The translations under genes were made by a program, and so were the position numbers. A stretch of 64,000 bases of DNA. Source: Hirudinaria manillensis (Eukaryota; Annelida; Clitellata; Hirudinida; Hirudinidae). The DNA is taken from the NCBI GenBank assembly GCA_034509925.1, contig CM067536.1:3757501-3821500 (forward strand). The letters run 5' to 3'. Under the pieces are notes generated by a model. It was not told the DNA's origin. It saw only the letters and a list, made by a program, of their open reading frames with translations, and ran no database searches. Numbering within the stretch: the first letter of the stretch is position 1; each line of letters opens with the position of its first letter. Shown in pieces: positions 25,187 through 60,065 of this stretch.

Positions 25187-25282
25187 GAGACATTTTTTAT
25201 TTATAGTTTAGTATTTTTATAAATATATTAAATCGCAATAAATTTAATCGTTCGATTTAATCAATTATTTTTGGCGCGAATT
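25187..25282. repeat. patchwork partial array unit at the left border
   Basis: 25187-25250 is a diverged copy of the unit's 3'-UTR segment (compare 25493-25563). 25250-25282 is an exact copy of the segment with TTTTTGGCGCGAATTG (compare 25353-25385). The first complete unit then starts at 25283. The joins look like recombination between different parts of a unit. Confidence 0.7.
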
Positions 25283-25499
25283 GCCTTTTAATTTAATTAT
25301 TCATTTATTTCATTTGAATTAAATTTACTAATTAATAACGAAATTAAAATACGTTCGATTTAATCAATTATTTTTGGCGCGAATTGAACCGACGTCACGA
25401 TGCTCGACGTTTAAAAAACGTGCTTCGTATCCCTATAAGTCGACCCACCCGTGCTACTATATTTTTTTTATCCATAAATATAATTGATGAAATGACAAT

Positions 25500-25526
25500 T
25501 TTATTTATAGTTTAATTTTTTTTATT
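25500..25526 (-). promoter_or_regulatory. polyadenylation signals of array copy 1 (repeated in every unit)
   Basis: AATAAA on the minus strand at 25521-25526 and 25500-25505, 80-106 bases after the stop codon. Copies sit at the same offset in all other units; copy 17 has lost a few bases between them. Confidence 0.55.
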
Positions 25527-25605
25527 AATATATTAAATCGCAATTAATTTAATCGTAAACAGGCTCTGGCGTGCATTTTCTCAAGCAAATCTTCTTAAAG
25601 CATTA

Positions 25606-26796
25606 TTACAGCTCCTTGTAATCTGATACGCAGATCGAGTGAAACAACTTACCTTTAAGCAAGTTGCAGTCGACCCAGCACCAATCGTCTTCGTCATCGT
25701 TCCAGACGCAGTCAAAGTCCTCCTGGCAAACGAAACAAAGGGCCTCTTTGAAACAACTCTTTGTTACCGGTCCGCGTACTATCTCGTCTTGAAATTGATA
25801 TTTCTTAAAGTACTTTTTCAATTTCTGGCGATCGATAGAAGATTTCAAATCGTCCCCCAGAGGAACGGTAGAGTCATTGAAATACTCGAAGGTCACCCAG
25901 TCCTCGAGAGACTTAAAATGCGGTCGACTATATCCGGCCAAACTCCTCTTACGTTCGTCGAAATGCTTCTGAAGGTGCATGGTGTAGCGGACACTGGCTT
26001 CACTCAGACCTACTTTTAAATCCTTCCCGGGTGTTGGCTTGAAAGAAACATTGCAATTGCTGCATTTCTTTCCTTCTAGGAATTTGTCAACATAATATTT
26101 ATGCTTGGTTTGAAGTTTCTCCAAGCTGAAATCAGCCATGGATGGAGGATTTTTCGAATTCGACACCTTAACAGGAGAAACATTGTGGCATATATGGACA
26201 ACCTTGGTCGCCTTGGGTTCTGATTTCAATGCGATCGGACTCTTTCGGACTGAATCGCCTTCTGCGGACGGTGCCAAAGGATAGCCGGGTGGAAACATTG
26301 GTGGAAACCCAGGTGGGAAAAACGGTGGCAGACCTACTGGAAACATTGGTGGCATGCCTTGTGGAAACATGGGGGGCATACCAGGAGGCAACACTGGTGG
26401 CATTCCGGGAGGCAACACTGGTGGCATTCCGGGTGGCAACATTGGTGGCATTCCGGGTGGCAACATTGGTGGCATTCCGGGTGGCAACATTGGTGGCAAG
26501 CCAGGTGGCAACACTGGCGGCATACCGGGAGGCAACACTGGCGGCATACCGGGTGGCAACATAGGAGGCATACCGGGCGGTAGCATGGCCGGAAAGCCAG
26601 GTGGTAAAAACGGAAACATAGGTGCACATGGAGGCATCATTTGAGGCACACCATTGCTGACGCTATTTTCCGTGACTTGGCGCTTATACGGTCTCTCGCA
26701 TTGAGCAATGTCGTTTCTACGCTTCAAACTTGAGCGAGAGTTTGTCTTGTTTACGTTGCCACTTTGGCATTGCCTCGCTGAAGCGGTTTTATGCAT
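25606..26796 (-). CDS. Pcf11-C-terminal-like two-zinc-finger protein, array copy 1
   Basis: 396 aa. Residues 1-50 are basic with an NLS-like KRR (25-27). Residues 51-173 are Pro/Met-rich: nine [M/V]LPPG[M/L]PP octads, then MFPQGMPP and related blocks. Residues 219-396 match the C-terminus of Pcf11, the cleavage factor CF IIA subunit that couples pre-mRNA cleavage to termination: finger 1 Cys245, Cys248, His274, His278; the SLEDWVTFE motif (296-304, SLTDWIEFE in human); finger 2 Cys354, Cys357, His386, Cys389 in CxxC...GKLFHSIC. The acidic WNDDEDDW (365-372) matches Pcf11 WDEEEEEW. There is no CID or FEGP-type region, so this is not a Pcf11 orthologue. A nuclear RNA 3'-end role is inference from homology. 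ATG 26796 is the first in-frame Met and is the same in all copies. This copy carries Ile30 and upstream haplotype a. Confidence 0.9.
   Translation of the reverse strand: MHKTASARQCQSGNVNKTNSRSSLKRRNDIAQCERPYKRQVTENSVSNGVPQMMPPCAPMFPFLPPGFPAMLPPGMPPMLPPGMPPVLPPGMPPVLPPGLPPMLPPGMPPMLPPGMPPMLPPGMPPVLPPGMPPVLPPGMPPMFPQGMPPMFPVGLPPFFPPGFPPMFPPGYPLAPSAEGDSVRKSPIALKSEPKATKVVHICHNVSPVKVSNSKNPPSMADFSLEKLQTKHKYYVDKFLEGKKCSNCNVSFKPTPGKDLKVGLSEASVRYTMHLQKHFDERKRSLAGYSRPHFKSLEDWVTFEYFNDSTVPLGDDLKSSIDRQKLKKYFKKYQFQDEIVRGPVTKSCFKEALCFVCQEDFDCVWNDDEDDWCWVDCNLLKGKLFHSICVSDYKEL
25647..25652 (-). promoter_or_regulatory. consensus 5' splice-site sequence inside the finger-2 codons
   Basis: The minus strand reads AAAG|GTAAGT at codons 381-383, about 40 bases before the stop and 120-150 before the AATAAA signals. 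The coding frame continues through it into conserved Pcf11 residues, so it is normally read as coding. It could still bind U1 snRNP. It is present in every copy. Confidence 0.4.
26365..26580 (-). repeat. 24-bp coding minisatellite (copy 1; present in all 18 genes)
   Basis: Each 24-bp unit encodes one [M/V]LPPG[M/L]PP octad. There are nine octads here; other copies have 7 to 11, always whole units, so frame is kept. One GLPP variant octad marks a fixed position except in copy 16. Confidence 0.9.
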
Positions 26797-26997
26797 GCTG
26801 TCTTGATTATCAATTTAATTCTTTATCAAAATACTTCAAGAATTAAATATTGCAGAGCAATTGGAAATAATGGGGAAAAGCCTGGCAAATTAAATTCGAT
26901 TTTCAACCAGTGTTTATTGACCGCGAGCTCGTTCTTAACGCCGATGTTGCCAGGAGCACGTCGCATGCAATAATGAAAAAAATCGTCGCTTTCGCCC

Positions 26998-27041
26998 TTA
27001 TATGCTAAATTTGCGCGCGAAATTAATTACGCGCCAAAATT
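26998..27041 (-). promoter_or_regulatory. putative core promoter of array copy 1: TATA-like box and E2F-like sites
   Basis: On the minus strand, upstream of ATG 26796: ATATAAG (26997-27003), then TTTCGCGCGCAAAT (27008-27022) and TTTTGGCGCG (27030-27040), both like E2F/DP sites (TTTSSCGC). The 5' UTR would be about 170-180 bases. The block is kept in every unit except copy 18, where it is deleted. Motifs were read by eye. Confidence 0.5.
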
Positions 27042-27305
27042 AATTTATTAATTGATTTAAATATTTGCCATCATTTAATAAATTAATTATTAATTTGTAT
27101 TATAAACAAATATTTTATTTAATTTTTTTTTATTTTTTAAGTATAATATTAAAAATGTAAATTATTAAAAAAAAAATTATAAATCGATTAGTTATTCGTT
27201 ACTTTTCTGTCAAAATAGCCTTTTAATTTAATTATTCATTTATTTCGTTCGAATTAAATTTACTAATTAATAACGAAATTAAAATACGTTCGATTTAATC
27301 AATTA

Positions 27306-27372
27306 TTTTTGGCGCGAATTGAACCGACGTCACGATGCTCGACGTTTAAAAAACGTGCTTCGTATCCCTATA
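27306..27372. promoter_or_regulatory. distal upstream elements: E2F-like site, CRE-like site and palindrome
   Basis: TTTTTGGCGCGAATT (27306-27320) is a perfect E2F-type site. GACGTCACG follows (CRE-like), then the palindrome ACGTTTAAAAAACGT and a TATAAG motif. The block lies between the poly(A) signals of one copy and the core promoter of the next, and occurs in every unit. Confidence 0.4.
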
Positions 27373-27540
27373 AGTCGACCCACCCGTGCTACTATATTTT
27401 TTTTATCCATAAATATAATTGATGAAATGACAATTTTATTTATAGTTTAATTTTTTTTATTAATATATTAAATCGCAATTAATTTAATCGTAAACAGGCT
27501 CTGGCGTGCATTTTCTCAAGCAAATCTTCTTAAAGCATTA

Positions 27541-28731
27541 TTACAGCTCCTTGTAATCTGATACGCAGATCGAGTGAAACAACTTACCTTTAAGCAAGTT
27601 GCAGTCGACCCAGCACCAATCGTCTTCGTCATCGTTCCAGACGCAGTCAAAGTCCTCCTGGCAAACGAAACAAAGGGCCTCTTTGAAACAACTCTTTGTT
27701 ACCGGTCCGCGTACTATCTCGTCTTGAAATTGATATTTCTTAAAGTACTTTTTCAATTTCTGGCGATCGATAGAAGATTTCAAATCGTCCCCCAGAGGAA
27801 CGGTAGAGTCATTGAAATACTCGAAGGTCACCCAGTCCTCGAGAGACTTAAAATGCGGTCGACTATATCCGGCCAAACTCCTCTTACGTTCGTCGAAATG
27901 CTTCTGAAGGTGCATGGTGTAGCGGACACTGGCTTCACTCAGACCTACTTTTAAATCCTTCCCGGGTGTTGGCTTGAAAGAAACATTGCAATTGCTGCAT
28001 TTCTTTCCTTCTAGGAATTTGTCAACATAATATTTATGCTTGGTTTGAAGTTTCTCCAAGCTGAAATCAGCCATGGATGGAGGATTTTTCGAATTCGACA
28101 CCTTAACAGGAGAAACATTGTGGCATATATGGACAACCTTGGTCGCCTTGGGTTCTGATTTCAATGCGATCGGACTCTTTCGGACTGAATCGCCTTCTGC
28201 GGACGGTGCCAAAGGATAGCCGGGTGGAAACATTGGTGGAAACCCAGGTGGGAAAAACGGTGGCAGACCTACTGGAAACATTGGTGGCATGCCTTGTGGA
28301 AACATGGGGGGCATACCAGGAGGCAACACTGGTGGCATTCCGGGAGGCAACACTGGTGGCATTCCGGGTGGCAACATTGGTGGCATTCCGGGTGGCAACA
28401 TTGGTGGCATTCCGGGTGGCAACATTGGTGGCAAGCCAGGTGGCAACACTGGCGGCATACCGGGAGGCAACACTGGCGGCATACCGGGAGGCAACACTGG
28501 CGGCATACCGGGCGGTAGCATGGCCGGAAAGCCAGGTGGTAAAAACGGAAACATAGGTGCACATGGAGGCATCATTTGAGGCACACCATTGCTGACGCTA
28601 TTTTCCGTGACTTGGCGCTTATACGGTCTCTCGCATTGAGCAATGTCGTTTCTACGCTTCAAACTTGAGCGAGAGTTTGTCTTGTTTACGTTGCCACTTT
28701 GGCATTGCCTCGCTGAAGCGGTTTTATGCAT
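27541..28731 (-). CDS. Pcf11-C-terminal-like protein, array copy 2
   Basis: 396 aa, Ile30, nine octads. It differs from copy 1 in the octad region: the second octad is V-type, giving three V-type octads before or at the GLPP octad. The upstream region carries haplotype b (ATAATGAGG, CGTGCTCG, TTGTCAGG). All zinc ligands are present. Confidence 0.9.
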   Translation of the reverse strand: MHKTASARQCQSGNVNKTNSRSSLKRRNDIAQCERPYKRQVTENSVSNGVPQMMPPCAPMFPFLPPGFPAMLPPGMPPVLPPGMPPVLPPGMPPVLPPGLPPMLPPGMPPMLPPGMPPMLPPGMPPVLPPGMPPVLPPGMPPMFPQGMPPMFPVGLPPFFPPGFPPMFPPGYPLAPSAEGDSVRKSPIALKSEPKATKVVHICHNVSPVKVSNSKNPPSMADFSLEKLQTKHKYYVDKFLEGKKCSNCNVSFKPTPGKDLKVGLSEASVRYTMHLQKHFDERKRSLAGYSRPHFKSLEDWVTFEYFNDSTVPLGDDLKSSIDRQKLKKYFKKYQFQDEIVRGPVTKSCFKEALCFVCQEDFDCVWNDDEDDWCWVDCNLLKGKLFHSICVSDYKEL

Positions 28732-29476
28732 GCTGTCTTGATTATCAATTTAATTCTTTATCAAAATACTTCAAGAATTAAATATTGCAGAGCAATTGGA
28801 AATAATGAGGAAAAGCCTGGCAAATTAAATTCGATTTTCAACCAGTGTTTATTGACCGCGTGCTCGTTCTTAACGCCGATGTTGTCAGGAGCACGTCGCA
28901 TGCAATAATGAAAAAAATCGTCGCTTTCGCCCTTATATGCTAAATTTGCGCGCGAAATTAATTACGCGCCAAAATTAATTTATTAATTGATTTAAATATT
29001 TGCCATCATTTAATAAATTAATTATTAATTTGTATTATAAACAAATATTTTATTTAATTTTTTTTTTATTTTTTAAGTATAATATTAAAAATGTAAATTA
29101 TTAAAAAAAAAATTATAAATCGATTAGTTATTCGTTACTTTTCTGTCAAAATAGCCTTTTAATTTAATTATTCATTTATTTCGTTCGAATTAAATTTACT
29201 AATTAATAACGAAATTAAAATACGTTCGATTTAATCAATTATTTTTGGCGCGAATTGAACCGACGTCACGATGCTCGACGTTTAAAAAACGTGCTTCGTA
29301 TCCCTATAAGTCGACCCACCCGTGCTACTATATTTTTTTTATCCATAAATATAATTGATGAAATGACAATTTTATTTATAGTTTAATTTTTTTTATTAAT
29401 ATATTAAATCGCAATTAATTTAATCGTAAACAGGCTCTGGCGTGCATTTTCTCAAGCAAATCTTCTTAAAGCATTA

Positions 29477-30691
29477 TTACAGCTCCTTGTAATCTGATAC
29501 GCAGATCGAGTGAAACAACTTACCTTTAAGCAAGTTGCAGTCGACCCAGCACCAATCGTCTTCGTCATCGTTCCAGACGCAGTCAAAGTCCTCCTGGCAA
29601 ACGAAACAAAGGGCCTCTTTGAAACAACTCTTTGTTACCGGTCCGCGTACTATCTCGTCTTGAAATTGATATTTCTTAAAGTACTTTTTCAATTTCTGGC
29701 GATCGATAGAAGATTTCAAATCGTCCCCCAGAGGAACGGTAGAGTCATTGAAATACTCGAAGGTCACCCAGTCCTCGAGAGACTTAAAATGCGGTCGACT
29801 ATATCCGGCCAAACTCCTCTTACGTTCGTCGAAATGCTTCTGAAGGTGCATGGTGTAGCGGACACTGGCTTCACTCAGACCTACTTTTAAATCCTTCCCG
29901 GGTGTTGGCTTGAAAGAAACATTGCAATTGCTGCATTTCTTTCCTTCTAGGAATTTGTCAACATAATATTTATGCTTGGTTTGAAGTTTCTCCAAGCTGA
30001 AATCAGCCATGGATGGAGGATTTTTCGAATTCGACACCTTAACAGGAGAAACATTGTGGCATATATGGACAACCTTGGTCGCCTTGGGTTCTGATTTCAA
30101 TGCGATCGGACTCTTTCGGACTGAATCGCCTTCTGCGGACGGTGCCAAAGGATAGCCGGGTGGAAACATTGGTGGAAACCCAGGTGGGAAAAACGGTGGC
30201 AGACCTACTGGAAACATTGGTGGCATGCCTTGTGGAAACATGGGGGGCATACCAGGAGGCAACACTGGTGGCATTCCGGGTGGCAACATTGGTGGCATTC
30301 CGGGAGGCAACACTGGTGGCATTCCGGGTGGCAACATTGGTGGCATTCCGGGTGGCAACATTGGTGGCATTCCGGGTGGCAACATTGGTGGCAAGCCAGG
30401 TGGCAACACTGGCGGCATACCGGGAGGCAACACTGGCGGCATACCGGGTGGCAACATAGGAGGCATACCGGGCGGTAGCATGGCCGGAAAGCCAGGTGGT
30501 AAAAACGGAAACATAGGTGCACATGGAGGCATCATTTGAGGCACACCATTGCTGACGCTATTTTCCGTGACTTGGCGCTTGTACGGTCTCTCGCATTGAG
30601 CATTGTCGTTTCTACGCTTCAAACTTGAGCGAGAGTTTGTCTTGTTTACGTTGCCACTTTGGCATTGCCTCGCTGAAGCGGTTTTATGCAT
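29477..30691 (-). CDS. Pcf11-C-terminal-like protein, array copy 3
   Basis: 404 aa, Asn30 instead of Ile30, ten octads in the M-M-V-V-M-M-M-V-M-V order shared with copies 14, 15, 17 and 18. Upstream haplotype a. A linked synonymous change (GCTTGTACGG on the plus strand) travels with Asn30. The unit border before copy 4 has an unusually long A-run near 31060. Confidence 0.9.
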   Translation of the reverse strand: MHKTASARQCQSGNVNKTNSRSSLKRRNDNAQCERPYKRQVTENSVSNGVPQMMPPCAPMFPFLPPGFPAMLPPGMPPMLPPGMPPVLPPGMPPVLPPGLPPMLPPGMPPMLPPGMPPMLPPGMPPVLPPGMPPMLPPGMPPVLPPGMPPMFPQGMPPMFPVGLPPFFPPGFPPMFPPGYPLAPSAEGDSVRKSPIALKSEPKATKVVHICHNVSPVKVSNSKNPPSMADFSLEKLQTKHKYYVDKFLEGKKCSNCNVSFKPTPGKDLKVGLSEASVRYTMHLQKHFDERKRSLAGYSRPHFKSLEDWVTFEYFNDSTVPLGDDLKSSIDRQKLKKYFKKYQFQDEIVRGPVTKSCFKEALCFVCQEDFDCVWNDDEDDWCWVDCNLLKGKLFHSICVSDYKEL

Positions 30692-31437
30692 GCTGTCTTG
30701 ATTATCAATTTAATTCTTTATCAAAATACTTCAAGAATTAAATATTGCAGAGCAATTGGAAATAATGGGGAAAAGCCTGGCAAATTAAATTCGATTTTCA
30801 ACCAGTGTTTATTGACCGCGAGCTCGTTCTTAACGCCGATGTTGCCAGGAGCACGTCGCATGCAATAATGAAAAAAATCGTCGCTTTCGCCCTTATATGC
30901 TAAATTTGCGCGCGAAATTAATTACGCGCCAAAATTAATTTATTAATTGATTTAAATATTTGCCATCATTTAATAAATTAATTATTAATTTGTATTATAA
31001 ACAAATATTTTATTTAATTTTTTTTTTATTTTTTAAGTATAATATTAAAAATGTAAATTTAAAAAAAAAAAAATTATAAATCGATTAGTTATTCGTTACT
31101 TTTCTGTCAAAATAGCCTTTTAATTTAATTATTCATTTATTTCGTTCGAATTAAATTTACTAATTAATAACGAAATTAAAATACGTTCGATTTAATCAAT
31201 TATTTTTGGCGCGAATTGAACCGACGTCACGATGCTCGACGTTTAAAAAACGTGCTTCGTATCCCTATAAGTCGACCCACCCGTGCTACTATATTTTTTT
31301 TATCCATAAATATAATTGATGAAATGACAATTTTATTTATAGTTTAATTTTTTTTATTAATATATTAAATCGCAATTAATTTAATCGTAAACAGGCTCTG
31401 GCGTGCATTTTCTCAAGCAAATCTTCTTAAAGCATTA

Positions 31438-32652
31438 TTACAGCTCCTTGTAATCTGATACGCAGATCGAGTGAAACAACTTACCTTTAAGCAAGTTGCA
31501 GTCGACCCAGCACCAATCGTCTTCGTCATCGTTCCAGACGCAGTCAAAGTCCTCCTGGCAAACGAAACAAAGGGCCTCTTTGAAACAACTCTTTGTTACC
31601 GGTCCGCGTACTATCTCGTCTTGAAATTGATATTTCTTAAAGTACTTTTTCAATTTCTGGCGATCGATAGAAGATTTCAAATCGTCCCCCAGAGGAACGG
31701 TAGAGTCATTGAAATACTCGAAGGTCACCCAGTCCTCGAGAGACTTAAAATGCGGTCGACTATATCCGGCCAAACTCCTCTTACGTTCGTCGAAATGCTT
31801 CTGAAGGTGCATGGTGTAGCGGACACTGGCTTCACTCAGACCTACTTTTAAATCCTTCCCGGGTGTTGGCTTGAAAGAAACATTGCAATTGCTGCATTTC
31901 TTTCCTTCTAGGAATTTGTCAACATAATATTTATGCTTGGTTTGAAGTTTCTCCAAGCTGAAATCAGCCATGGATGGAGGATTTTTCGAATTCGACACCT
32001 TAACAGGAGAAACATTGTGGCATATATGGACAACCTTGGTCGCCTTGGGTTCTGATTTCAATGCGATCGGACTCTTTCGGACTGAATCGCCTTCTGCGGA
32101 CGGTGCCAAAGGATAGCCGGGTGGAAACATTGGTGGAAACCCAGGTGGGAAAAACGGTGGCAGACCTACTGGAAACATTGGTGGCATGCCTTGTGGAAAC
32201 ATGGGGGGCATACCAGGAGGCAACACTGGTGGCATTCCGGGAGGCAACACTGGTGGCATTCCGGGAGGCAACATTGGTGGCATTCCGGGAGGCAACACTG
32301 GTGGCATTCCGGGTGGCAACATTGGTGGCATTCCGGGTGGCAACATTGGTGGCAAGCCAGGTGGCAACACTGGCGGCATACCGGGAGGCAACACTGGCGG
32401 CATACCGGGTGGCAACATAGGAGGCATACCGGGCGGTAGCATGGCCGGAAAGCCAGGTGGTAAAAACGGAAACATAGGTGCACATGGAGGCATCATTTGA
32501 GGCACACCATTGCTGACGCTATTTTCCGTGACTTGGCGCTTATACGGTCTCTCGCATTGAGCAATGTCGTTTCTACGCTTCAAACTTGAGCGAGAGTTTG
32601 TCTTGTTTACGTTGCCACTTTGGCATTGCCTCGCTGAAGCGGTTTTATGCAT
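31438..32652 (-). CDS. Pcf11-C-terminal-like protein, array copy 4
   Basis: 404 aa, Ile30, ten octads in an order seen only here (M-M-V-V-M-M-V-M-V-V). The upstream region is mosaic: haplotype b at ATAATGAGG but haplotype a at CGAGCTCG and TTGCCAGG, a sign of recombination between unit types. Confidence 0.9.
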   Translation of the reverse strand: MHKTASARQCQSGNVNKTNSRSSLKRRNDIAQCERPYKRQVTENSVSNGVPQMMPPCAPMFPFLPPGFPAMLPPGMPPMLPPGMPPVLPPGMPPVLPPGLPPMLPPGMPPMLPPGMPPVLPPGMPPMLPPGMPPVLPPGMPPVLPPGMPPMFPQGMPPMFPVGLPPFFPPGFPPMFPPGYPLAPSAEGDSVRKSPIALKSEPKATKVVHICHNVSPVKVSNSKNPPSMADFSLEKLQTKHKYYVDKFLEGKKCSNCNVSFKPTPGKDLKVGLSEASVRYTMHLQKHFDERKRSLAGYSRPHFKSLEDWVTFEYFNDSTVPLGDDLKSSIDRQKLKKYFKKYQFQDEIVRGPVTKSCFKEALCFVCQEDFDCVWNDDEDDWCWVDCNLLKGKLFHSICVSDYKEL

Positions 32653-40418: not shown

Positions 40419-41163
40419 GCTGTCTTGATTATCAATTTAATTCTTTATCAAAATACTTCAAGAATTAAATATTGCAGAGCAATTGGAAATAATGAGGAAA
40501 AGCCTGGCAAATTAAATTCGATTTTCAACCAGTGTTTATTGACCGCGTGCTCGTTCTTAACGCCGATGTTGTCAGGAGCACGTCGCATGCAATAATGAAA
40601 AAAATCGTCGCTTTCGCCCTTATATGCTAAATTTGCGCGCGAAATTAATTACGCGCCAAAATTAATTTATTAATTGATTTAAATATTTGCCATCATTTAA
40701 TAAATTAATTATTAATTTGTATTATAAACAAATATTTTATTTAATTTTTTTTTTATTTTTTAAGTATAATATTAAAAATGTAAATTATTAAAAAAAAAAT
40801 TATAAATCGATTAGTTATTCGTTACTTTTCTGTCAAAATAGCCTTTTAATTTAATTATTCATTTATTTCGTTCGAATTAAATTTACTAATTAATAACGAA
40901 ATTAAAATACGTTCGATTTAATCAATTATTTTTGGCGCGAATTGAACCGACGTCACGATGCTCGACGTTTAAAAAACGTGCTTCGTATCCCTATAAGTCG
41001 ACCCACCCGTGCTACTATATTTTTTTTATCCATAAATATAATTGATGAAATGACAATTTTATTTATAGTTTAATTTTTTTTATTAATATATTAAATCGCA
41101 ATTAATTTAATCGTAAACAGGCTCTGGCGTGCATTTTCTCAAGCAAATCTTCTTAAAGCATTA

Positions 41164-42355
41164 TTACAGCTCCTTGTAATCTGATACGCAGATCGAGTGA
41201 AACAACTTACCTTTAAGCAAGTTGCAGTCGACCCAGCACCAATCGTCTTCGTCATCGTTCCAGACGCAGTCAAAGTCCTCCTGGCAAACGAAACAAAGGG
41301 CCTCTTTGAAACAACTCTTTGTTACCGGTCCGCGTACTATCTCGTCTTGAAATTGATATTTCTTAAAGTACTTTTTCAATTTCTGGCGATCGATAGAAGA
41401 TTTCAAATCGTCCCCCAGAGGAACGGTAGAGTCATTGAAATACTCGAAGGTCACCCAGTCCTCGAGAGACTTAAAATGCGGTCGACTATATCCGGCCAAA
41501 CTCCTCTTACGTTCGTCGAAATGCTTCTGAAGGTGCATGGTGTAGCGGACACTGGCTTCACTCAGACCTACTTTTAAATCCTTCCCGGGTGTTGGCTTGA
41601 AAGAAACATTGCAATTGCTGCATTTCTTTCCTTCTAGGAATTTGTCAACATAATATTTATGCTTGGTTTGAAGTTTCTCCAAGCTGAAATCAGCCATGGA
41701 TGGAGGATTTTTCGAATTCGACACCTTAACAGGAGAAACATTGTGGCATATATGGACAACCTTGGTCGCCTTGGGTTCTGATTTCAATGCGATCGGACTC
41801 TTTCGGACTGAATCGCCTTCTGCGGACGGTGCCAAAGGATAGCCGGGTGGAAACATTGGTGGAAACCCAGGTGGGAAAAACGGTGGCAGACCTACTGGAA
41901 ACATTGGTGGCATGCCTTGTGGAAACATGGGGGGCATACCAGGAGGCAACACTGGTGGCATTCCGGGAGGCAACACTGGTGGCATTCCGGGTGGCAACAT
42001 TGGTGGCATTCCGGGTGGCAACATTGGTGGCATTCCGGGTGGCAACATTGGTGGCAAGCCAGGTGGCAACACTGGCGGCATACCGGGAGGCAACACTGGC
42101 GGCATACCGGGTGGCAACATAGGAGGCATACCGGGCGGTAGCATGGCCGGAAAGCCAGGTGGTAAAAACGGAAACATAGGTGCACATGGAGGCATCATTT
42201 GAGGCACACCATTGCTGACGCTATTTTCCGTGACTTGGCGCTTATACGGTCTCTCGCATTGAGCAATTGTCGTTTCTACGCTTCAAACTTGAGCGAGAGT
42301 TTGTCTTGTTTACGTTGCCACTTTGGCATTGCCTCGCTGAAGCGGTTTTATGCAT
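41164..42355 (-). pseudogene. Pcf11-C-terminal-like gene, array copy 9, frameshifted
   Basis: One extra T (within GCAATTGTCG at 42263-42272; other copies have GCAATGTCG or GCATTGTCG) shifts the frame after about residue 29. Translation from the usual ATG (42355) then ends at a TAA (42242-42244 on the complement) after roughly 37 codons. The rest of the frame, including the octads and both zinc fingers, is intact, so internal initiation at a Met near residue 53 could still give an N-truncated protein. Upstream haplotype b. A sequencing or assembly error in one copy is possible. Confidence 0.8.
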
Positions 42356-43100
42356 GCTGTCTTGATTATCAATTTAATTCTTTATCAAAATACTTCAAGA
42401 ATTAAATATTGCAGAGCAATTGGAAATAATGAGGAAAAGCCTGGCAAATTAAATTCGATTTTCAACCAGTGTTTATTGACCGCGTGCTCGTTCTTAACGC
42501 CGATGTTGTCAGGAGCACGTCGCATGCAATAATGAAAAAAATCGTCGCTTTCGCCCTTATATGCTAAATTTGCGCGCGAAATTAATTACGCGCCAAAATT
42601 AATTTATTAATTGATTTAAATATTTGCCATCATTTAATAAATTAATTATTAATTTGTATTATAAACAAATATTTTATTTAATTTTTTTTTTATTTTTTAA
42701 GTATAATATTAAAAATGTAAATTATTAAAAAAAAAATTATAAATCGATTAGTTATTCGTTACTTTTCTGTCAAAATAGCCTTTTAATTTAATTATTCATT
42801 TATTTCGTTCGAATTAAATTTACTAATTAATAACGAAATTAAAATACGTTCGATTTAATCAATTATTTTTGGCGCGAATTGAACCGACGTCACGATGCTC
42901 GACGTTTAAAAAACGTGCTTCGTATCCCTATAAGTCGACCCACCCGTGCTACTATATTTTTTTTATCCATAAATATAATTGATGAAATGACAATTTTATT
43001 TATAGTTTAATTTTTTTTATTAATATATTAAATCGCAATTAATTTAATCGTAAACAGGCTCTGGCGTGCATTTTCTCAAGCAAATCTTCTTAAAGCATTA

Positions 43101-44291
43101 TTACAGCTCCTTGTAATCTGATACGCAGATCGAGTGAAACAACTTACCTTTAAGCAAGTTGCAGTCGACCCAGCACCAATCGTCTTCGTCATCGTTCCAG
43201 ACGCAGTCAAAGTCCTCCTGGCAAACGAAACAAAGGGCCTCTTTGAAACAACTCTTTGTTACCGGTCCGCGTACTATCTCGTCTTGAAATTGATATTTCT
43301 TAAAGTACTTTTTCAATTTCTGGCGATCGATAGAAGATTTCAAATCGTCCCCCAGAGGAACGGTAGAGTCATTGAAATACTCGAAGGTCACCCAGTCCTC
43401 GAGAGACTTAAAATGCGGTCGACTATATCCGGCCAAACTCCTCTTACGTTCGTCGAAATGCTTCTGAAGGTGCATGGTGTAGCGGACACTGGCTTCACTC
43501 AGACCTACTTTTAAATCCTTCCCGGGTGTTGGCTTGAAAGAAACATTGCAATTGCTGCATTTCTTTCCTTCTAGGAATTTGTCAACATAATATTTATGCT
43601 TGGTTTGAAGTTTCTCCAAGCTGAAATCAGCCATGGATGGAGGATTTTTCGAATTCGACACCTTAACAGGAGAAACATTGTGGCATATATGGACAACCTT
43701 GGTCGCCTTGGGTTCTGATTTCAATGCGATCGGACTCTTTCGGACTGAATCGCCTTCTGCGGACGGTGCCAAAGGATAGCCGGGTGGAAACATTGGTGGA
43801 AACCCAGGTGGGAAAAACGGTGGCAGACCTACTGGAAACATTGGTGGCATGCCTTGTGGAAACATGGGGGGCATACCAGGAGGCAACACTGGTGGCATTC
43901 CGGGAGGCAACACTGGTGGCATTCCGGGTGGCAACATTGGTGGCATTCCGGGTGGCAACATTGGTGGCATTCCGGGTGGCAACATTGGTGGCAAGCCAGG
44001 TGGCAACACTGGCGGCATACCGGGAGGCAACACTGGCGGCATACCGGGTGGCAACATAGGAGGCATACCGGGCGGTAGCATGGCCGGAAAGCCAGGTGGT
44101 AAAAACGGAAACATAGGTGCACATGGAGGCATCATTTGAGGCACACCATTGCTGACGCTATTTTCCGTGACTTGGCGCTTATACGGTCTCTCGCATTGAG
44201 CAATGTCGTTTCTACGCTTCAAACTTGAGCGAGAGTTTGTCTTGTTTACGTTGCCACTTTGGCATTGCCTCGCTGAAGCGGTTTTATGCAT
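43101..44291 (-). CDS. Pcf11-C-terminal-like protein, array copy 10
   Basis: 396 aa, apparently the same protein as copies 1 and 8, with upstream haplotype b. It directly follows the frameshifted copy 9 and does not share its insertion. Confidence 0.9.
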   Translation of the reverse strand: MHKTASARQCQSGNVNKTNSRSSLKRRNDIAQCERPYKRQVTENSVSNGVPQMMPPCAPMFPFLPPGFPAMLPPGMPPMLPPGMPPVLPPGMPPVLPPGLPPMLPPGMPPMLPPGMPPMLPPGMPPVLPPGMPPVLPPGMPPMFPQGMPPMFPVGLPPFFPPGFPPMFPPGYPLAPSAEGDSVRKSPIALKSEPKATKVVHICHNVSPVKVSNSKNPPSMADFSLEKLQTKHKYYVDKFLEGKKCSNCNVSFKPTPGKDLKVGLSEASVRYTMHLQKHFDERKRSLAGYSRPHFKSLEDWVTFEYFNDSTVPLGDDLKSSIDRQKLKKYFKKYQFQDEIVRGPVTKSCFKEALCFVCQEDFDCVWNDDEDDWCWVDCNLLKGKLFHSICVSDYKEL

Positions 44292-52131: not shown

Positions 52132-52876
52132 GCTGTCTTGATTATCAATTTAATTCTTTATCAAAATACTTCAAGAATTAAATATTGCAGAGCAATTGGA
52201 AATAATGAGGAAAAGCCTGGCAAATTAAATTCGATTTTCAACCAGTGTTTATTGACCGCGTGCTCGTTCTTAACGCCGATGTTGTCAGGAGCACGTCGCA
52301 TGCAATAATGAAAAAAATCGTCGCTTTCGCCCTTATATGCTAAATTTGCGCGCGAAATTAATTACGCGCCAAAATTAATTTATTAATTGATTTAAATATT
52401 TGCCATCATTTAATAAATTAATTATTAATTTGTATTATAAACAAATATTTTATTTAATTTTTTTTTTATTTTTTAAGTATAATATTAAAAATGTAAATTA
52501 TTAAAAAAAAAATTATAAATCGATTAGTTATTCGTTACTTTTCTGTCAAAATAGCCTTTTAATTTAATTATTCATTTATTTCATTTGAATTAAATTTACT
52601 AATTAATAACGAAATTAAAATACGTTCGATTTAATCAATTATTTTTGGCGCGAATTGAACCGACGTCACGATGCTCGACGTTTAAAAAACGTGCTTCGTA
52701 TCCCTATAAGTCGACCCACCCGTGCTACTATATTTTTTTTATCCATAAATATAATTGATGAAATGACAATTTTATTTATAGTTTAATTTTTTTTATTAAT
52801 ATATTAAATCGCAATTAATTTAATCGTAAACAGGCTCTGGCGTGCATTTTCTCAAGCAAATCTTCTTAAAGCATTA

Positions 52877-54091
52877 TTACAGCTCCTTGTAATCTGATAC
52901 GCAGATCGAGTGAAACAACTTACCTTTAAGCAAGTTGCAGTCGACCCAGCACCAATCGTCTTCGTCATCGTTCCAGACGCAGTCAAAGTCCTCCTGGCAA
53001 ACGAAACAAAGGGCCTCTTTGAAACAACTCTTTGTTACCGGTCCGCGTACTATCTCGTCTTGAAATTGATATTTCTTAAAGTACTTTTTCAATTTCTGGC
53101 GATCGATAGAAGATTTCAAATCGTCCCCCAGAGGAACGGTAGAGTCATTGAAATACTCGAAGGTCACCCAGTCCTCGAGAGACTTAAAATGCGGTCGACT
53201 ATATCCGGCCAAACTCCTCTTACGTTCGTCGAAATGCTTCTGAAGGTGCATGGTGTAGCGGACACTGGCTTCACTCAGACCTACTTTTAAATCCTTCCCG
53301 GGTGTTGGCTTGAAAGAAACATTGCAATTGCTGCATTTCTTTCCTTCTAGGAATTTGTCAACATAATATTTATGCTTGGTTTGAAGTTTCTCCAAGCTGA
53401 AATCAGCCATGGATGGAGGATTTTTCGAATTCGACACCTTAACAGGAGAAACATTGTGGCATATATGGACAACCTTGGTCGCCTTGGGTTCTGATTTCAA
53501 TGCGATCGGACTCTTTCGGACTGAATCGCCTTCTGCGGACGGTGCCAAAGGATAGCCGGGTGGAAACATTGGTGGAAACCCAGGTGGGAAAAACGGTGGC
53601 AGACCTACTGGAAACATTGGTGGCATGCCTTGTGGAAACATGGGGGGCATACCAGGAGGCAACACTGGTGGCATTCCGGGTGGCAACATTGGTGGCATTC
53701 CGGGAGGCAACACTGGTGGCATTCCGGGTGGCAACATTGGTGGCATTCCGGGTGGCAACATTGGTGGCATTCCGGGTGGCAACATTGGTGGCAAGCCAGG
53801 TGGCAACACTGGCGGCATACCGGGAGGCAACACTGGCGGCATACCGGGTGGCAACATAGGAGGCATACCGGGCGGTAGCATGGCCGGAAAGCCAGGTGGT
53901 AAAAACGGAAACATAGGTGCACATGGAGGCATCATTTGAGGCACACCATTGCTGACGCTATTTTCCGTGACTTGGCGCTTGTACGGTCTCTCGCATTGAG
54001 CATTGTCGTTTCTACGCTTCAAACTTGAGCGAGAGTTTGTCTTGTTTACGTTGCCACTTTGGCATTGCCTCGCTGAAGCGGTTTTATGCAT
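52877..54091 (-). CDS. Pcf11-C-terminal-like protein, array copy 15
   Basis: 404 aa, Asn30, same protein as copy 3. Upstream haplotype a. Confidence 0.9.
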   Translation of the reverse strand: MHKTASARQCQSGNVNKTNSRSSLKRRNDNAQCERPYKRQVTENSVSNGVPQMMPPCAPMFPFLPPGFPAMLPPGMPPMLPPGMPPVLPPGMPPVLPPGLPPMLPPGMPPMLPPGMPPMLPPGMPPVLPPGMPPMLPPGMPPVLPPGMPPMFPQGMPPMFPVGLPPFFPPGFPPMFPPGYPLAPSAEGDSVRKSPIALKSEPKATKVVHICHNVSPVKVSNSKNPPSMADFSLEKLQTKHKYYVDKFLEGKKCSNCNVSFKPTPGKDLKVGLSEASVRYTMHLQKHFDERKRSLAGYSRPHFKSLEDWVTFEYFNDSTVPLGDDLKSSIDRQKLKKYFKKYQFQDEIVRGPVTKSCFKEALCFVCQEDFDCVWNDDEDDWCWVDCNLLKGKLFHSICVSDYKEL

Positions 54092-54836
54092 GCTGTCTTG
54101 ATTATCAATTTAATTCTTTATCAAAATACTTCAAGAATTAAATATTGCAGAGCAATTGGAAATAATGGGGAAAAGCCTGGCAAATTAAATTCGATTTTCA
54201 ACCAGTGTTTATTGACCGCGAGCTCGTTCTTAACGCCGATGTTGCCAGGAGCACGTCGCATGCAATAATGAAAAAAATCGTCGCTTTCGCCCTTATATGC
54301 TAAATTTGCGCGCGAAATTAATTACGCGCCAAAATTAATTTATTAATTGATTTAAATATTTGCCATCATTTAATAAATTAATTATTAATTTGTATTATAA
54401 ACAAATATTTTATTTAATTTTTTTTTTATTTTTTAAGTATAATATTAAAAATGTAAATTATTAAAAAAAAAATTATAAATCGATTAGTTATTCGTTACTT
54501 TTCTGTCAAAATAGCCTTTTAATTTAATTATTCATTTATTTCTTTCGAATTAAATTTACTAATTAATAACGAAATTAAAATACGTTCGATTTAATCAATT
54601 ATTTTTGGCGCGAATTGAACCGACGTCACGATGCTCGACGTTTAAAAAACGTGCTTCGTATCCCTATAAGTCGACCCACCCGTGCTACTATATTTTTTTT
54701 ATCCATAAATATAATTGATGAAATGACAATTTTATTTATAGTTTAATTTTTTTTATTAATATATTAAATCGCAATTAATTTAATCGTAAACAGGCTCTGG
54801 CGTGCATTTTCTCAAGCAAATCTTCTTAAAGCATTA

Positions 54837-55979
54837 TTACAGCTCCTTGTAATCTGATACGCAGATCGAGTGAAACAACTTACCTTTAAGCAAGTTGCAG
54901 TCGACCCAGCACCAATCGTCTTCGTCATCGTTCCAGACGCAGTCAAAGTCCTCCTGGCAAACGAAACAAAGGGCCTCTTTGAAACAACTCTTTGTTACCG
55001 GTCCGCGTACTATCTCGTCTTGAAATTGATATTTCTTAAAGTACTTTTTCAATTTCTGGCGATCGATAGAAGATTTCAAATCGTCCCCCAGAGGAACGGT
55101 AGAGTCATTGAAATACTCGAAGGTCACCCAGTCCTCGAGAGACTTAAAATGCGGTCGACTATATCCGGCCAAACTCCTCTTACGTTCGTCGAAATGCTTC
55201 TGAAGGTGCATGGTGTAGCGGACACTGGCTTCACTCAGACCTACTTTTAAATCCTTCCCGGGTGTTGGCTTGAAAGAAACATTGCAATTGCTGCATTTCT
55301 TTCCTTCTAGGAATTTGTCAACATAATATTTATGCTTGGTTTGAAGTTTCTCCAAGCTGAAATCAGCCATGGATGGAGGATTTTTCGAATTCGACACCTT
55401 AACAGGAGAAACATTGTGGCATATATGGACAACCTTGGTCGCCTTGGGTTCTGATTTCAATGCGATCGGACTCTTTCGGACTGAATCGCCTTCTGCGGAC
55501 GGTGCCAAAGGATAGCCGGGTGGAAACATTGGTGGAAACCCAGGTGGGAAAAACGGTGGCAGACCTACTGGAAACATTGGTGGCATGCCTTGTGGAAACA
55601 TGGGGGGCATACCAGGAGGCAACACTGGTGGCATTCCGGGTGGCAACATTGGTGGCATTCCGGGAGGCAACACTGGTGGCATTCCGGGTGGCAACATTGG
55701 TGGCATTCCGGGTGGCAACATTGGTGGCATTCCGGGTGGCAACATTGGTGGCATACCGGGCGGTAGCATGGCCGGAAAGCCAGGTGGTAAAAACGGAAAC
55801 ATAGGTGCACATGGAGGCATCATTTGAGGCACACCATTGCTGACGCTATTTTCCGTGACTTGGCGCTTGTACGGTCTCTCGCATTGAGCATTGTCGTTTC
55901 TACGCTTCAAACTTGAGCGAGAGTTTGTCTTGTTTACGTTGCCACTTTGGCATTGCCTCGCTGAAGCGGTTTTATGCAT
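54837..55979 (-). CDS. Pcf11-C-terminal-like protein, array copy 16 (shortest)
   Basis: 380 aa, Asn30, only seven octads. An in-frame 72-bp loss removed three octads including the GLPP variant, relative to copies 15 and 17. Both zinc fingers are intact. The unit start has the private variant CTTTCGAATT. Upstream haplotype a. Confidence 0.9.
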   Translation of the reverse strand: MHKTASARQCQSGNVNKTNSRSSLKRRNDNAQCERPYKRQVTENSVSNGVPQMMPPCAPMFPFLPPGFPAMLPPGMPPMLPPGMPPMLPPGMPPMLPPGMPPVLPPGMPPMLPPGMPPVLPPGMPPMFPQGMPPMFPVGLPPFFPPGFPPMFPPGYPLAPSAEGDSVRKSPIALKSEPKATKVVHICHNVSPVKVSNSKNPPSMADFSLEKLQTKHKYYVDKFLEGKKCSNCNVSFKPTPGKDLKVGLSEASVRYTMHLQKHFDERKRSLAGYSRPHFKSLEDWVTFEYFNDSTVPLGDDLKSSIDRQKLKKYFKKYQFQDEIVRGPVTKSCFKEALCFVCQEDFDCVWNDDEDDWCWVDCNLLKGKLFHSICVSDYKEL

Positions 55980-56722
55980 GCTGTCTTGATTATCAATTTA
56001 ATTCTTTATCAAAATACTTCAAGAATTAAATATTGCAGAGCAATTGGAAATAATGGGGAAAAGCCTGGCAAATTAAATTCGATTTTCAACCAGTGTTTAT
56101 TGACCGCGAGCTCGTTCTTAACGCCGATGTTGCCAGGAGCACGTCGCATGCAATAATGAAAAAAATCGTCGCTTTCGCCCTTATATGCTAAATTTGCGCG
56201 CGAAATTAATTACGCGCCAAAATTAATTTATTAATTGATTTAAATATTTGCCATCATTTAATAAATTAATTATTAATTTGTATTATAAACAAATATTTTA
56301 TTTAATTTTTTTTTATTTTTTAAGTATAATATTAAAAATGTAAATTATTAAAAAAAAAATTATAAATCGATTAGTTATTCGTTACTTTTCTGTCAAAATA
56401 GCCTTTTAATTTAATTATTCATTTATTTCATTTGAATTAAATTTACTAATTAATAACGAAATTAAAATACGTTCGATTTAATCAATTATTTTTGGCGCGA
56501 ATTGAACCGACGTCACGATGCTCGACGTTTAAAAAACGTGCTTCGTATCCCTATAAGTCGACCCACCCGTGCTACTATATTTTTTTTATCCATAAATATA
56601 ATTGATGAAATGACAATTTTATTTATAGTTTATTTTTTTTATTAATATATTAAATCGCAATTAATTTAATCGTAAACAGGCTCTGGCGTGCATTTTCTCA
56701 AGCAAATCTTCTTAAAGCATTA

Positions 56723-57937
56723 TTACAGCTCCTTGTAATCTGATACGCAGATCGAGTGAAACAACTTACCTTTAAGCAAGTTGCAGTCGACCCAGCACCA
56801 ATCGTCTTCGTCATCGTTCCAGACGCAGTCAAAGTCCTCCTGGCAAACGAAACAAAGGGCCTCTTTGAAACAACTCTTTGTTACCGGTCCGCGTACTATC
56901 TCGTCTTGAAATTGATATTTCTTAAAGTACTTTTTCAATTTCTGGCGATCGATAGAAGATTTCAAATCGTCCCCCAGAGGAACGGTAGAGTCATTGAAAT
57001 ACTCGAAGGTCACCCAGTCCTCGAGAGACTTAAAATGCGGTCGACTATATCCGGCCAAACTCCTCTTACGTTCGTCGAAATGCTTCTGAAGGTGCATGGT
57101 GTAGCGGACACTGGCTTCACTCAGACCTACTTTTAAATCCTTCCCGGGTGTTGGCTTGAAAGAAACATTGCAATTGCTGCATTTCTTTCCTTCTAGGAAT
57201 TTGTCAACATAATATTTATGCTTGGTTTGAAGTTTCTCCAAGCTGAAATCAGCCATGGATGGAGGATTTTTCGAATTCGACACCTTAACAGGAGAAACAT
57301 TGTGGCATATATGGACAACCTTGGTCGCCTTGGGTTCTGATTTCAATGCGATCGGACTCTTTCCGACTGAATCGCCTTCTGCGGACGGTGCCAAAGGATA
57401 GCCGGGTGGAAACATTGGTGGAAACCCAGGTGGGAAAAACGGTGGCAGACCTACTGGAAACATTGGTGGCATGCCTTGTGGAAACATGGGGGGCATACCA
57501 GGAGGCAACACTGGTGGCATTCCGGGTGGCAACATTGGTGGCATTCCGGGAGGCAACACTGGTGGCATTCCGGGTGGCAACATTGGTGGCATTCCGGGTG
57601 GCAACATTGGTGGCATTCCGGGTGGCAACATTGGTGGCAAGCCAGGTGGCAACACTGGCGGCATACCGGGAGGCAACACTGGCGGCATACCGGGTGGCAA
57701 CATAGGAGGCATACCGGGCGGTAGCATGGCCGGAAAGCCAGGTGGTAAAAACGGAAACATAGGTGCACATGGAGGCATCATTTGAGGCACACCATTGCTG
57801 ACGCTATTTTCCGTGACTTGGCGCTTGTACGGTCTCTCGCATTGAGCATTGTCGTTTCTACGCTTCAAACTTGAGCGAGAGTTTGTCTTGTTTACGTTGC
57901 CACTTTGGCATTGCCTCGCTGAAGCGGTTTTATGCAT
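56723..57937 (-). CDS. Pcf11-C-terminal-like protein, array copy 17
   Basis: 404 aa, Asn30. It has the only amino-acid change outside residue 30 and the octads that I noticed among intact copies: Arg to Gly in SV(R/G)KSPIAL, just before the zinc-finger region (plus strand TTCCGACTG for TTCGGACTG). The 3' flank also has a small A/T-run deletion near 56630. Confidence 0.9.
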   Translation of the reverse strand: MHKTASARQCQSGNVNKTNSRSSLKRRNDNAQCERPYKRQVTENSVSNGVPQMMPPCAPMFPFLPPGFPAMLPPGMPPMLPPGMPPVLPPGMPPVLPPGLPPMLPPGMPPMLPPGMPPMLPPGMPPVLPPGMPPMLPPGMPPVLPPGMPPMFPQGMPPMFPVGLPPFFPPGFPPMFPPGYPLAPSAEGDSVGKSPIALKSEPKATKVVHICHNVSPVKVSNSKNPPSMADFSLEKLQTKHKYYVDKFLEGKKCSNCNVSFKPTPGKDLKVGLSEASVRYTMHLQKHFDERKRSLAGYSRPHFKSLEDWVTFEYFNDSTVPLGDDLKSSIDRQKLKKYFKKYQFQDEIVRGPVTKSCFKEALCFVCQEDFDCVWNDDEDDWCWVDCNLLKGKLFHSICVSDYKEL

Positions 57938-58681
57938 GCTGTCTTGATTATCAATTTAATTCTTTATCAAAATACTTCAAGAATTAAATATTGCAGAGCA
58001 ATTGGAAATAATGGGGAAAAGCCTGGCAAATTAAATTCGATTTTCAACCAGTGTTTATTGACCGCGAGCTCGTTCTTAACGCCGATGTTGCCAGGAGCAC
58101 GTCGCATGCAATAATGAAAAAAATCGTCGCTTTCGCCCTTATATGCTAAATTTGCGCGCGAAATTAATTACGCGCCAAAATTAATTTATTAATTGATTTA
58201 AATATTTGCCATCATTTAATAAATTAATTATTAATTTGTATTATAAACAAATATTTTATTTAATTTTTTTTTATTTTTTAAGTATAATATTAAAAATGTA
58301 AATTATTAAAAAAAAAATTATAAATCGATTAGTTATTCGTTACTTTTCTGTCAAAATAGCCTTTTAATTTAATTATTCATTTATTTCGTTCGAATTAAAT
58401 TTACTAATTAATAACGAAATTCAAATACGTTCGATTTAATCAATTATTTTTGGCGCGAATTGAACCGACGTCACGATGCTCGACGTTTAAAAAACGTGCT
58501 TCGTATCCCTATAAGTCGACCCACCCGTGCTACTATATTTTTTTTATCCATAAATATAATTGATGAAATGACAATTTTATTTATAGTTTATTTTTTTTTA
58601 TTAATATATTAAATCGCAATTAATTTAATCGTAAACAGGCTCTGGCGTGCATTTTCTCAAGCAAATCTTCTTAAAGCATTA

Positions 58682-59896
58682 TTACAGCTCCTTGTAATCT
58701 GATACGCAGATCGAGTGAAACAACTTACCTTTAAGCAAGTTGCAGTCGACCCAGCACCAATCGTCTTCGTCATCGTTCCAGACGCAGTCAAAGTCCTCCT
58801 GGCAAACGAAACAAAGGGCCTCTTTGAAACAACTCTTTGTTACCGGTCCGCGTACTATCTCGTCTTGAAATTGATATTTCTTAAAGTACTTTTTCAATTT
58901 CTGGCGATCGATAGAAGATTTCAAATCGTCCCCCAGAGGAACGGTAGAGTCATTGAAATACTCGAAGGTCACCCAGTCCTCGAGAGACTTAAAATGCGGT
59001 CGACTATATCCGGCCAAACTCCTCTTACGTTCGTCGAAATGCTTCTGAAGGTGCATGGTGTAGCGGACACTGGCTTCACTCAGACCTACTTTTAAATCCT
59101 TCCCGGGTGTTGGCTTGAAAGAAACATTGCAATTGCTGCATTTCTTTCCTTCTAGGAATTTGTCAACATAATATTTATGCTTGGTTTGAAGTTTCTCCAA
59201 GCTGAAATCAGCCATGGATGGAGGATTTTTCGAATTCGACACCTTAACAGGAGAAACATTGTGGCATATATGGACAACCTTGGTCGCCTTGGGTTCTGAT
59301 TTCAATGCGATCGGACTCTTTCGGACTGAATCGCCTTCTGCGGACGGTGCCAAAGGATAGCCGGGTGGAAACATTGGTGGAAACCCAGGTGGGAAAAACG
59401 GTGGCAGACCTACTGGAAACATTGGTGGCATGCCTTGTGGAAACATGGGGGGCATACCAGGAGGCAACACTGGTGGCATTCCGGGTGGCAACATTGGTGG
59501 CATTCCGGGAGGCAACACTGGTGGCATTCCGGGTGGCAACATTGGTGGCATTCCGGGTGGCAACATTGGTGGCATTCCGGGTGGCAACATTGGTGGCAAG
59601 CCAGGTGGCAACACTGGCGGCATACCGGGAGGCAACACTGGCGGCATACCGGGTGGCAACATAGGAGGCATACCGGGCGGTAGCATGGCCGGAAAGCCAG
59701 GTGGTAAAAACGGAAACATAGGTGCACATGGAGGCATCATTTGAGGCACACCATTGCTGACGCTATTTTCCGTGACTTGGCGCTTGTACGGTCTCTCGCA
59801 TTGAGCATTGTCGTTTCTACGCTTCAAACTTGAGCGAGAGTTTGTCTTGTTTACGTTGCCACTTTGGCATTGCCTCGCTGAAGCGGTTTTATGCAT
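58682..59896 (-). CDS. Pcf11-C-terminal-like protein, array copy 18, promoter lost
   Basis: 404 aa, Asn30, same octad order as copy 3. The coding frame is intact, but the unit ends at about 60065, 169 bases upstream of the ATG, so the TATA-like box and all E2F-like sites are missing. Expression would need another promoter. It has private changes near the border (ATATTTC, AGGATCACG). Confidence 0.88.
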   Translation of the reverse strand: MHKTASARQCQSGNVNKTNSRSSLKRRNDNAQCERPYKRQVTENSVSNGVPQMMPPCAPMFPFLPPGFPAMLPPGMPPMLPPGMPPVLPPGMPPVLPPGLPPMLPPGMPPMLPPGMPPMLPPGMPPVLPPGMPPMLPPGMPPVLPPGMPPMFPQGMPPMFPVGLPPFFPPGFPPMFPPGYPLAPSAEGDSVRKSPIALKSEPKATKVVHICHNVSPVKVSNSKNPPSMADFSLEKLQTKHKYYVDKFLEGKKCSNCNVSFKPTPGKDLKVGLSEASVRYTMHLQKHFDERKRSLAGYSRPHFKSLEDWVTFEYFNDSTVPLGDDLKSSIDRQKLKKYFKKYQFQDEIVRGPVTKSCFKEALCFVCQEDFDCVWNDDEDDWCWVDCNLLKGKLFHSICVSDYKEL

Positions 59897-60065
59897 GCTG
59901 TCTTGATTATCAATTTAATTCTTTATCAAAATATTTCAAGAATTAAATATTGCAGAGCAATTGGAAATAATGGGGAAAAGCCTGGCAAATTAAATTCGAT
60001 TTTCAACCAGTGTTTATTGACCGCGAGCTCGTTCTTAACGCCGATGTTGCCAGGATCACGTCGCA

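Follow-up and report, generated by a model that had tools for sequence, protein, structure and literature searches.

What does a leech gain, if anything, from eighteen nearly identical genes, set head to tail, for the C-terminal end of an mRNA 3'-end processing factor? Such an array lies in a 64,000-nucleotide stretch of the Hirudinaria manillensis genome (assembly GCA_034509925.1, contig CM067536.1, positions 3,757,501 to 3,821,500 of the forward strand; hereafter the window, whose coordinates are used throughout). Each unit carries a gene resembling the C-terminal zinc-finger module of Pcf11, in which no counterpart of the CID, the part of Pcf11 that binds RNA polymerase II, was found. The genes are the close kin of an older single-copy paralog, here called B, with which they share flanking DNA; they are homogeneous, show some constraint, and are preceded by promoter-like motifs. 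A fragment of a housekeeping factor has here given rise to a small family of genes, and in one of its branches an array has formed in which 17 of 18 units possess promoter motifs. Our tentative answer is that the array amplifies the dosage of this short module; a genome of this kind offers an experiment of nature on how dosage affects the formation of mRNA 3' ends.

The array and its spacer

Comparing one unit with the window by BLAST resolved 18 head-to-tail units on the minus strand, between 25286 and 60065. Together with the list of open frames, this reproduced the description in the initial annotation of 18 near-identical units of about 1.94 kb, 17 of them with an open intronless gene, save that the array began 3 bp away (25286 rather than 25283). 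The units are 1,887-1,984 bp long, except for the last (58362-60065; 1,704 bp), whose right-hand side is truncated at a point before the coding region begins. Seventeen contain a minus-strand frame from ATG to stop of 380-412 amino acids, and these represent 12 distinct coding sequences; the frame lengths differ in steps of eight amino acids through the variable number of 24-bp minisatellite repeats. The remaining gene, copy 9 (unit 40844-42780), has a one-base insertion exactly where the other copies hold one of two bases, which may be a genuine frameshift or a consensus error. With approximately 35 kb of repeats and only 24 variable alignment columns, a chance origin is ruled out: the array is real, with 18 as its copy number in the assembly. 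AATAAA-type signals can be read in the sequence behind the gene. An Rfam scan of the window returned no family at the gathering score, and hence no histone 3' stem-loop, while a tRNA scan of the window returned no match. The features of the array are as follows.

Unit starts, minus strand (BLAST): 25286, 27221, 29157, 31118, 33078, 35012, 36949, 38908, 40844, 42781, 44717, 46677, 48661, 50597, 52557, 54517, 56404, 58362
25606..26796, minus strand: copy 1, open frame of 396 amino acids
27541..28731, minus strand: copy 2, open frame of 396 amino acids
29477..30691, minus strand: copy 3, open frame of 404 amino acids
31438..32652, minus strand: copy 4, open frame of 404 amino acids
33398..34588, minus strand: copy 5, open frame of 396 amino acids
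35332..36522, minus strand: copy 6, open frame of 396 amino acids
37269..38483, minus strand: copy 7, open frame of 404 amino acids
39228..40418, minus strand: copy 8, open frame of 396 amino acids
41164..42355, minus strand: copy 9, frame broken by the one-base insertion near the coding start; ATG at 42353-42355
43101..44291, minus strand: copy 10, open frame of 396 amino acids
45037..46251, minus strand: copy 11, open frame of 404 amino acids
46997..48235, minus strand: copy 12, open frame of 412 amino acids
48981..50171, minus strand: copy 13, open frame of 396 amino acids
50917..52131, minus strand: copy 14, open frame of 404 amino acids
52877..54091, minus strand: copy 15, open frame of 404 amino acids
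54837..55979, minus strand: copy 16, open frame of 380 amino acids
56723..57937, minus strand: copy 17, open frame of 404 amino acids
58682..59896, minus strand: copy 18, open frame of 404 amino acids; the unit ends before the TATA box and E2F-like sites
26285..26577, minus strand: minisatellite of copy 1, a 24-bp repeat encoding PPGMPPML-type repeats
25164..25251, minus strand: diverged fragment matching the 3' part of a unit, immediately beyond the array edge; 90 aligned columns at 84% identity
26995..27002, minus strand: TATA box (TATAAGGG) of copy 1, with the ATG 206 bp downstream; 17 of 18 units have the box, at a distance of 205-207 bp
27015..27038, minus strand: two E2F-like sites (TTTCGCGC, TTTGGCGC) of copy 1, preceding the TATA box; shared by 17 of 18 units

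The exception with regard to the spacer motifs is copy 18, which lacks both the TATAAGGG box and the two E2F-like sites, such that an open frame and the promoter motifs are kept together in 16 of the 18 units. The E2F-like sites were called with TTTSSCGC, which we take to be the E2F consensus. The circularised spacer of unit 2 contains three such sites, two of them just upstream of TATAAGGG, against 0.37 expected by simulation (p 0.006), and 28.9 kb of flanking sequence contains none. As the TATA box and paired E2F-like sites precede the gene in all units but the last, strong transcription in proliferating or germline cells is possible.

Identity, family and insertion site

The identification of the gene as Pcf11-C-terminal-like, proposed in the initial annotation, was borne out by three comparisons. 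Firstly, the array protein matches the Pfam family Pcf11_C (E 7.9e-5) across zinc finger 2. Secondly, a profile built from seven family members and the last-exon fragment of the leech Pcf11 matched two distinct sequences in the PDB, counting matches at E up to 1, and both were yeast Pcf11 (E 7.3e-7 and 1.3e-6). Thirdly, the protein aligns with the genome's own Pcf11. Two alignments of eight rows each were made, the first (A1) including this Pcf11 and the second (A3) including P0007, a relative from another assembly. The zinc-binding positions of both fingers are invariant in each, including C245, C248, H274 and H278 of zinc finger 1 (C-x2-C ... H-x3-H), as are R291, L297, W300 and P312 between the fingers; N307 is invariant in A1 and variable in A3. 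Neither Pfam nor PDB matches covered zinc finger 1 of the array protein, which was identified by alignment with the genome's Pcf11. Judged by homology, the array protein is therefore the counterpart of the Pcf11 C-terminus, with finger 2 recognised by Pfam and PDB, and finger 1 and the inter-finger segment by that alignment.

The full-length parent that this identity implies was looked for in the same genome and found on contig C3, with a CID (E 2.6e-12). By contrast, Pfam detected no CID in the array protein, in the single-copy paralogs A, B and C, or in their relatives P0004-P0007 from other assemblies. These paralogs emerged from a six-frame Pcf11_C search of the genome (23 contigs, 148,429,096 bases; 24 of 24 candidates scored), which found 22 matches: the full Pcf11, the three single short paralogs, and the 18 array copies. 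Pcf11 and C are on C3, whereas A and B are adjacent on C11, the array's own contig, at 2.2 Mb from it. Hence the search for further array loci in the genome found none, as only four Pcf11_C matches (Pcf11, A, B and C) lie outside the array. In a separate genome search, two exon matches at C3:10.246 Mb belong to the genome's Pcf11, and weak matches at 21-31% identity, which mostly cover the proline-rich repeat, were taken to reflect composition (at least 169 matches, from the best 105 of 4,209 candidates). Beside paralog C is a gene that, on inspection by eye, resembles a GT92-type glycosyltransferase (L040 5716-6606).

Nor is the array a one-off. Protein searches of other assemblies found P0004 (74% to the array protein over residues 206-396), P0005 and P0006 (65% and 63% to A), and P0007 (64% to C). 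A tree of nine rows united P0004 with the array and B (100/99), within which the array joined B (90/92); P0006 grouped with A and P0005 (100/98), and C with P0007 (89/91). As A, B and C all have relatives elsewhere, the family is older than the array, and its three kinds of short Pcf11 seem to predate the split of the species that hold these relatives. Within it, the tree places the array as a branch of the B lineage, sister to the older single paralog. P0004 comprises four member sequences on one 64.6-kb contig, and so is perhaps a second small array.

The initial annotation regarded the array as an amplified C-terminus of Pcf11 that was either retrocopied or derived from a fragment. That a C-terminal fragment was amplified held up, but retroposition as the source of the array itself did not. 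At the nucleotide level, a unit is homologous to B throughout the coding region and over approximately 360 bp before the ATG and approximately 180 bp behind the stop (gapped, 75-87%). As these flanks are common to the array and B, DNA duplication is favoured over a fresh retrocopy, and the latter was dropped. A clean retrocopy origin of the whole family also became doubtful once introns were compared. At MKT|KYK, Pcf11 has an intron that none of C, A, B and the array shares. However, C appears to retain an intron at the position of the last Pcf11 intron, with splice signals, as read from the sequence, at that place and a similar exon behind. The P0007 frame runs through the place of this intron, while A, B and the array, all open without introns, end at its boundary. 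The family may therefore stem from the 3' part of Pcf11, copied either genomically or in semi-processed form.

On tblastn evidence, the array is situated between fragments of an M1 aminopeptidase gene.

60066..60172, minus strand: M1 aminopeptidase exon (GAMENWG) adjoining the right array edge; 58% of 36 amino acids and 53% of 34 to two left-flank M1 exons (tblastn)
24433..24714, minus strand: frame on the left side of the array that looks like the terminal part of an M1 aminopeptidase gene; a weak match, 40.5% of 37 amino acids to the frame at 1753-1860

Both fragments are on the minus strand and in the right order. Pfam returned no match for the frames at 24433-24714 and 60003-60185 (the latter being in a different frame from the M1 exon), such that the assignment relies on tblastn. 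No further exons of this gene were found between 24.7 and 25.3 kb, nor in 9.9 kb on the right; the array may have replaced the middle of the gene.

Other features of the surroundings are recorded in their own right. Left of the array are exons of two tandem M1 aminopeptidase genes on the minus strand (approximately 1600-9400 and 17100-23300). Between these, at 12776-13690 on the minus strand, is an intronless 304-amino-acid gene with an FHA domain, presumably resembling NIPP1/PPP1R8, which a locus at 9.8744-9.8749 Mb of contig C6 matches in pieces (84%, 52%), and of which it may be a retrocopy. An AATG microsatellite of approximately 42 copies (97% match) occupies 3837-4006. A few kb to the right of the window (C11, approximately 3.8256-3.8274 Mb; L063 8140-9882) a 580-amino-acid open frame appears by eye to be a non-long-terminal-repeat retrotransposon reverse transcriptase. 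Contig C11 starts with CCCTAA repeats. The visible parts of contig C23 (15,581 bp) encode cytochrome b and ND4; its long frames are the same under genetic codes 4, 5, 9 and 13, of which we take 5 to apply, from conserved residues.

A proposed dosage role and its rivals

The initial annotation offered two functions for the array, dosage or a selfish or suppressing germline locus, of which dosage would be the better. Specifically, the array may be a dosage amplification of a short docking module of Pcf11 that lacks the CID, with PPG-hydrophobic repeats as a surface for GYF proteins, a reading we advance tentatively, as plausible but short of probable. The short protein retains zinc finger 1, zinc finger 2 and the segment between them, which in Pcf11 includes the Clp1-binding region, but has no detected CID, the domain that binds the RNA polymerase II tail. 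A B-type paralog would have been copied at the DNA level to the site between the M1 fragments, and have multiplied there, probably via unequal exchange, with the same process keeping the copies alike. If expressed, the product could dock at Clp1 and CPSF, competing with, or partly replacing, full-length Pcf11 at Clp1 and the cleavage complex, such that poly(A) site choice or termination would be shifted without coupling to the polymerase. Vertebrate PCF11 is described in PMC6458999 as low-abundance, sub-stoichiometric and self-limited, with its level being of consequence. No co-amplification of Clp1 accompanies the array, as the genome-wide search found a single Clp1 match (2 of 2 candidates scored).

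The repeats add a second potential interaction. The genome has four GYF matches, two of which we take to show the GIGYF pattern. Each of the 17 open genes encodes 10-14 PPG-hydrophobic motifs, compared with 14 in B and five in P0004, and they are absent from A, C, P0005, P0006 and P0007. PMC12249416 describes such motifs, of the SMY2 type, as bound by the GYF domain of GIGYF2. The repeats of the array protein could therefore bind GYF proteins, and 10-14 motifs would provide a multivalent docking surface for SMY2-type members such as GIGYF. In the fullest version of the dosage reading, some 16 near-identical genes would set the dose of a CID-less, Clp1-docking mimic of Pcf11 in dividing or germline cells, and the repeat would link the cleavage complex to GIGYF-type repressors, uncoupling poly(A) choice from the polymerase while coupling it to translational repression; in this complete form we judge the proposal decidedly unlikely.

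Several findings weigh against dosage of a Pcf11 module. The array copies score 22.9 bits as protein, or 25.6 bits in the genome-wide search, below the curated Pcf11_C cut-off of 26.7, which A, B, C, P0005, P0006 and P0007 pass and P0004 just misses (25.5 bits). When a single sequence was searched against the PDB, the top match was an unrelated repeat protein, via the proline-rich repeat (E 1.5e-4), with yeast Pcf11 behind it (0.0013 and 0.0022); the search with the leech Pcf11 fragment reached finger 2 only, short of the Clp1-contact residues. Structure prediction of the finger module for four sequences gave a mean predicted local distance difference test score of 39.7, and was set aside. The E2F-like sites descend from one ancestral spacer, and B has a single TTTSSCGC site (p 0.09) and no TATAAGGG box, while A and C have no such site. 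Constraint between the array and B, in itself a point in favour, is only moderate. The ratio of nonsynonymous to synonymous substitution rates (dN/dS) over 288 codons outside the repeat was 0.34 (NG86), 0.48 (maximum likelihood) or 0.49 (YN00), with values of 0.47 and 0.70 for the N-terminal 64 codons. In the repeat it was 0.12-0.21, although one method gave 1.62, and comparisons of A with B or the array were saturated.

The strongest rival is a neutral or nearly neutral expansion, in which a functional but unremarkable B-type gene sits in an exchange-prone place, and its copy number drifts without any dosage role; we consider this possible but doubtful. Pairs of copies differ by 0-15 substitutions, as expected of a recent expansion, and 16 of the 17 open copies have the same sequence over their last 768 coding bases. 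When 15 pairs of informative sites from outside the repeat were compared, five showed all four combinations, each of the five including a single site near the 3' end; units exchanging sequence, or that site changing more than once, would fit this. The varying number of 24-bp repeats, the frameshifted copy and the copy without promoter motifs are equally at home in drift. Yet outside the repeat coding columns vary less than the spacer (3 of 960 against 11 of 745, Fisher p 0.012), albeit in a test from which 10 variable columns of the repeat are omitted, two of which the reference unit does not have, and which assumes an independence of columns that exchange between copies violates. Drift also sits less easily with 16 of 18 units keeping both frame and promoter motifs, and with the four P0004 sequences on one contig, which hint at multiplication elsewhere.

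Alternatively, the paralogs and the array might act outside mRNA 3' ends altogether, the fingers being kept as a fold while the PPG-hydrophobic repeats do the work, for instance in translational repression via GIGYF. Only the B lineage has the repeats, which abound in the GYF-binding motif of the SMY2 type (PMC12249416), and GYF domains are encoded in the genome. However, all family members share the zinc-binding positions of the finger module without variation, and A and C keep the module without a single PPG-hydrophobic motif, making such a role unlikely.

A selfish germline locus or suppressor, whether Stellate-like or an autosomal driver, would use many copies of a truncated essential protein to poison or silence something in gamete formation. 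The array is indeed a multi-copy, homogeneous, truncated relative of an essential factor, so far seen in few assemblies. Leeches, however, are hermaphrodites, to which sex-ratio drive is inapplicable, and hence a Stellate-type sex-linked drive is hard to fit. The same genome keeps the single-copy sister gene B, the array shows moderate constraint relative to it, and all 18 copies stand in one block on one strand, with no inverted copy in the genome-wide Pcf11_C search. We regard this explanation as improbable. Lastly, inflation of one or a few copies by the assembler is very improbable, since although units 7-10 have no substitutions among them (unit 7 differing in repeat number and unit 9 by its insertion, which falls on a position variable among the copies, where a consensus error could arise), the window contains no N, the units differ in length and at variable sites, and the published Hirudinaria manillensis assembly was, according to PMC10671345, built from PacBio HiFi reads with a contig N50 of 9.58 Mb.

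Comparison with known systems

The open-access literature matches listed include no description of a Pcf11 array or of leech Pcf11 paralogs, and so do not contradict the initial annotation, which knew of no described array of this kind. In PMC10087013, a paper on a leech genome, the word Pcf11 does not occur in the main text. The nearest published parallel found is Arabidopsis PCFS1 and PCFS5, which PMC10839035 describes as intronless, truncated, CID-less Pcf11 paralogs, present in few plants and argued to be pseudogenes. Like these, A, B and the array are intronless, lack a CID and keep the C-terminal finger, a likeness in kind for which an independent origin is presumed; unlike them, the leech genes have stayed open in several assemblies, and an array of 18 copies has formed in one of the branches. 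Compared with Pcf11 itself, a subunit of CFIIm / CF IA, the array protein shares the C-terminal two-finger module, the segment between the fingers and the Pcf11_C match, and paralog C shares the position of the last intron. The array protein differs in having no detected CID, a length of approximately 400 amino acids, PPGMPPML repeats and 18 tandem copies, and the N-terminal part has no detected similarity to Pcf11, as shown for A and C.

Three other systems provide partial parallels. CSTF2T, a retrogene of a 3'-end processing factor, is likewise an intronless paralog of a polyadenylation factor, but is single-copy with a full domain set. Stellate and other multi-copy germline arrays are also lineage-specific tandem copies from a conserved factor; for the leech array, by contrast, no sex linkage is expected, no silencing partner was found, and a single-copy sister gene is kept. 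Replication-dependent histone arrays resemble it in being tandem, homogeneous and intronless, with promoter motifs in each unit, whereas the leech array has one gene per unit, no Rfam match at the gathering score, and AATAAA-type signals behind the gene.

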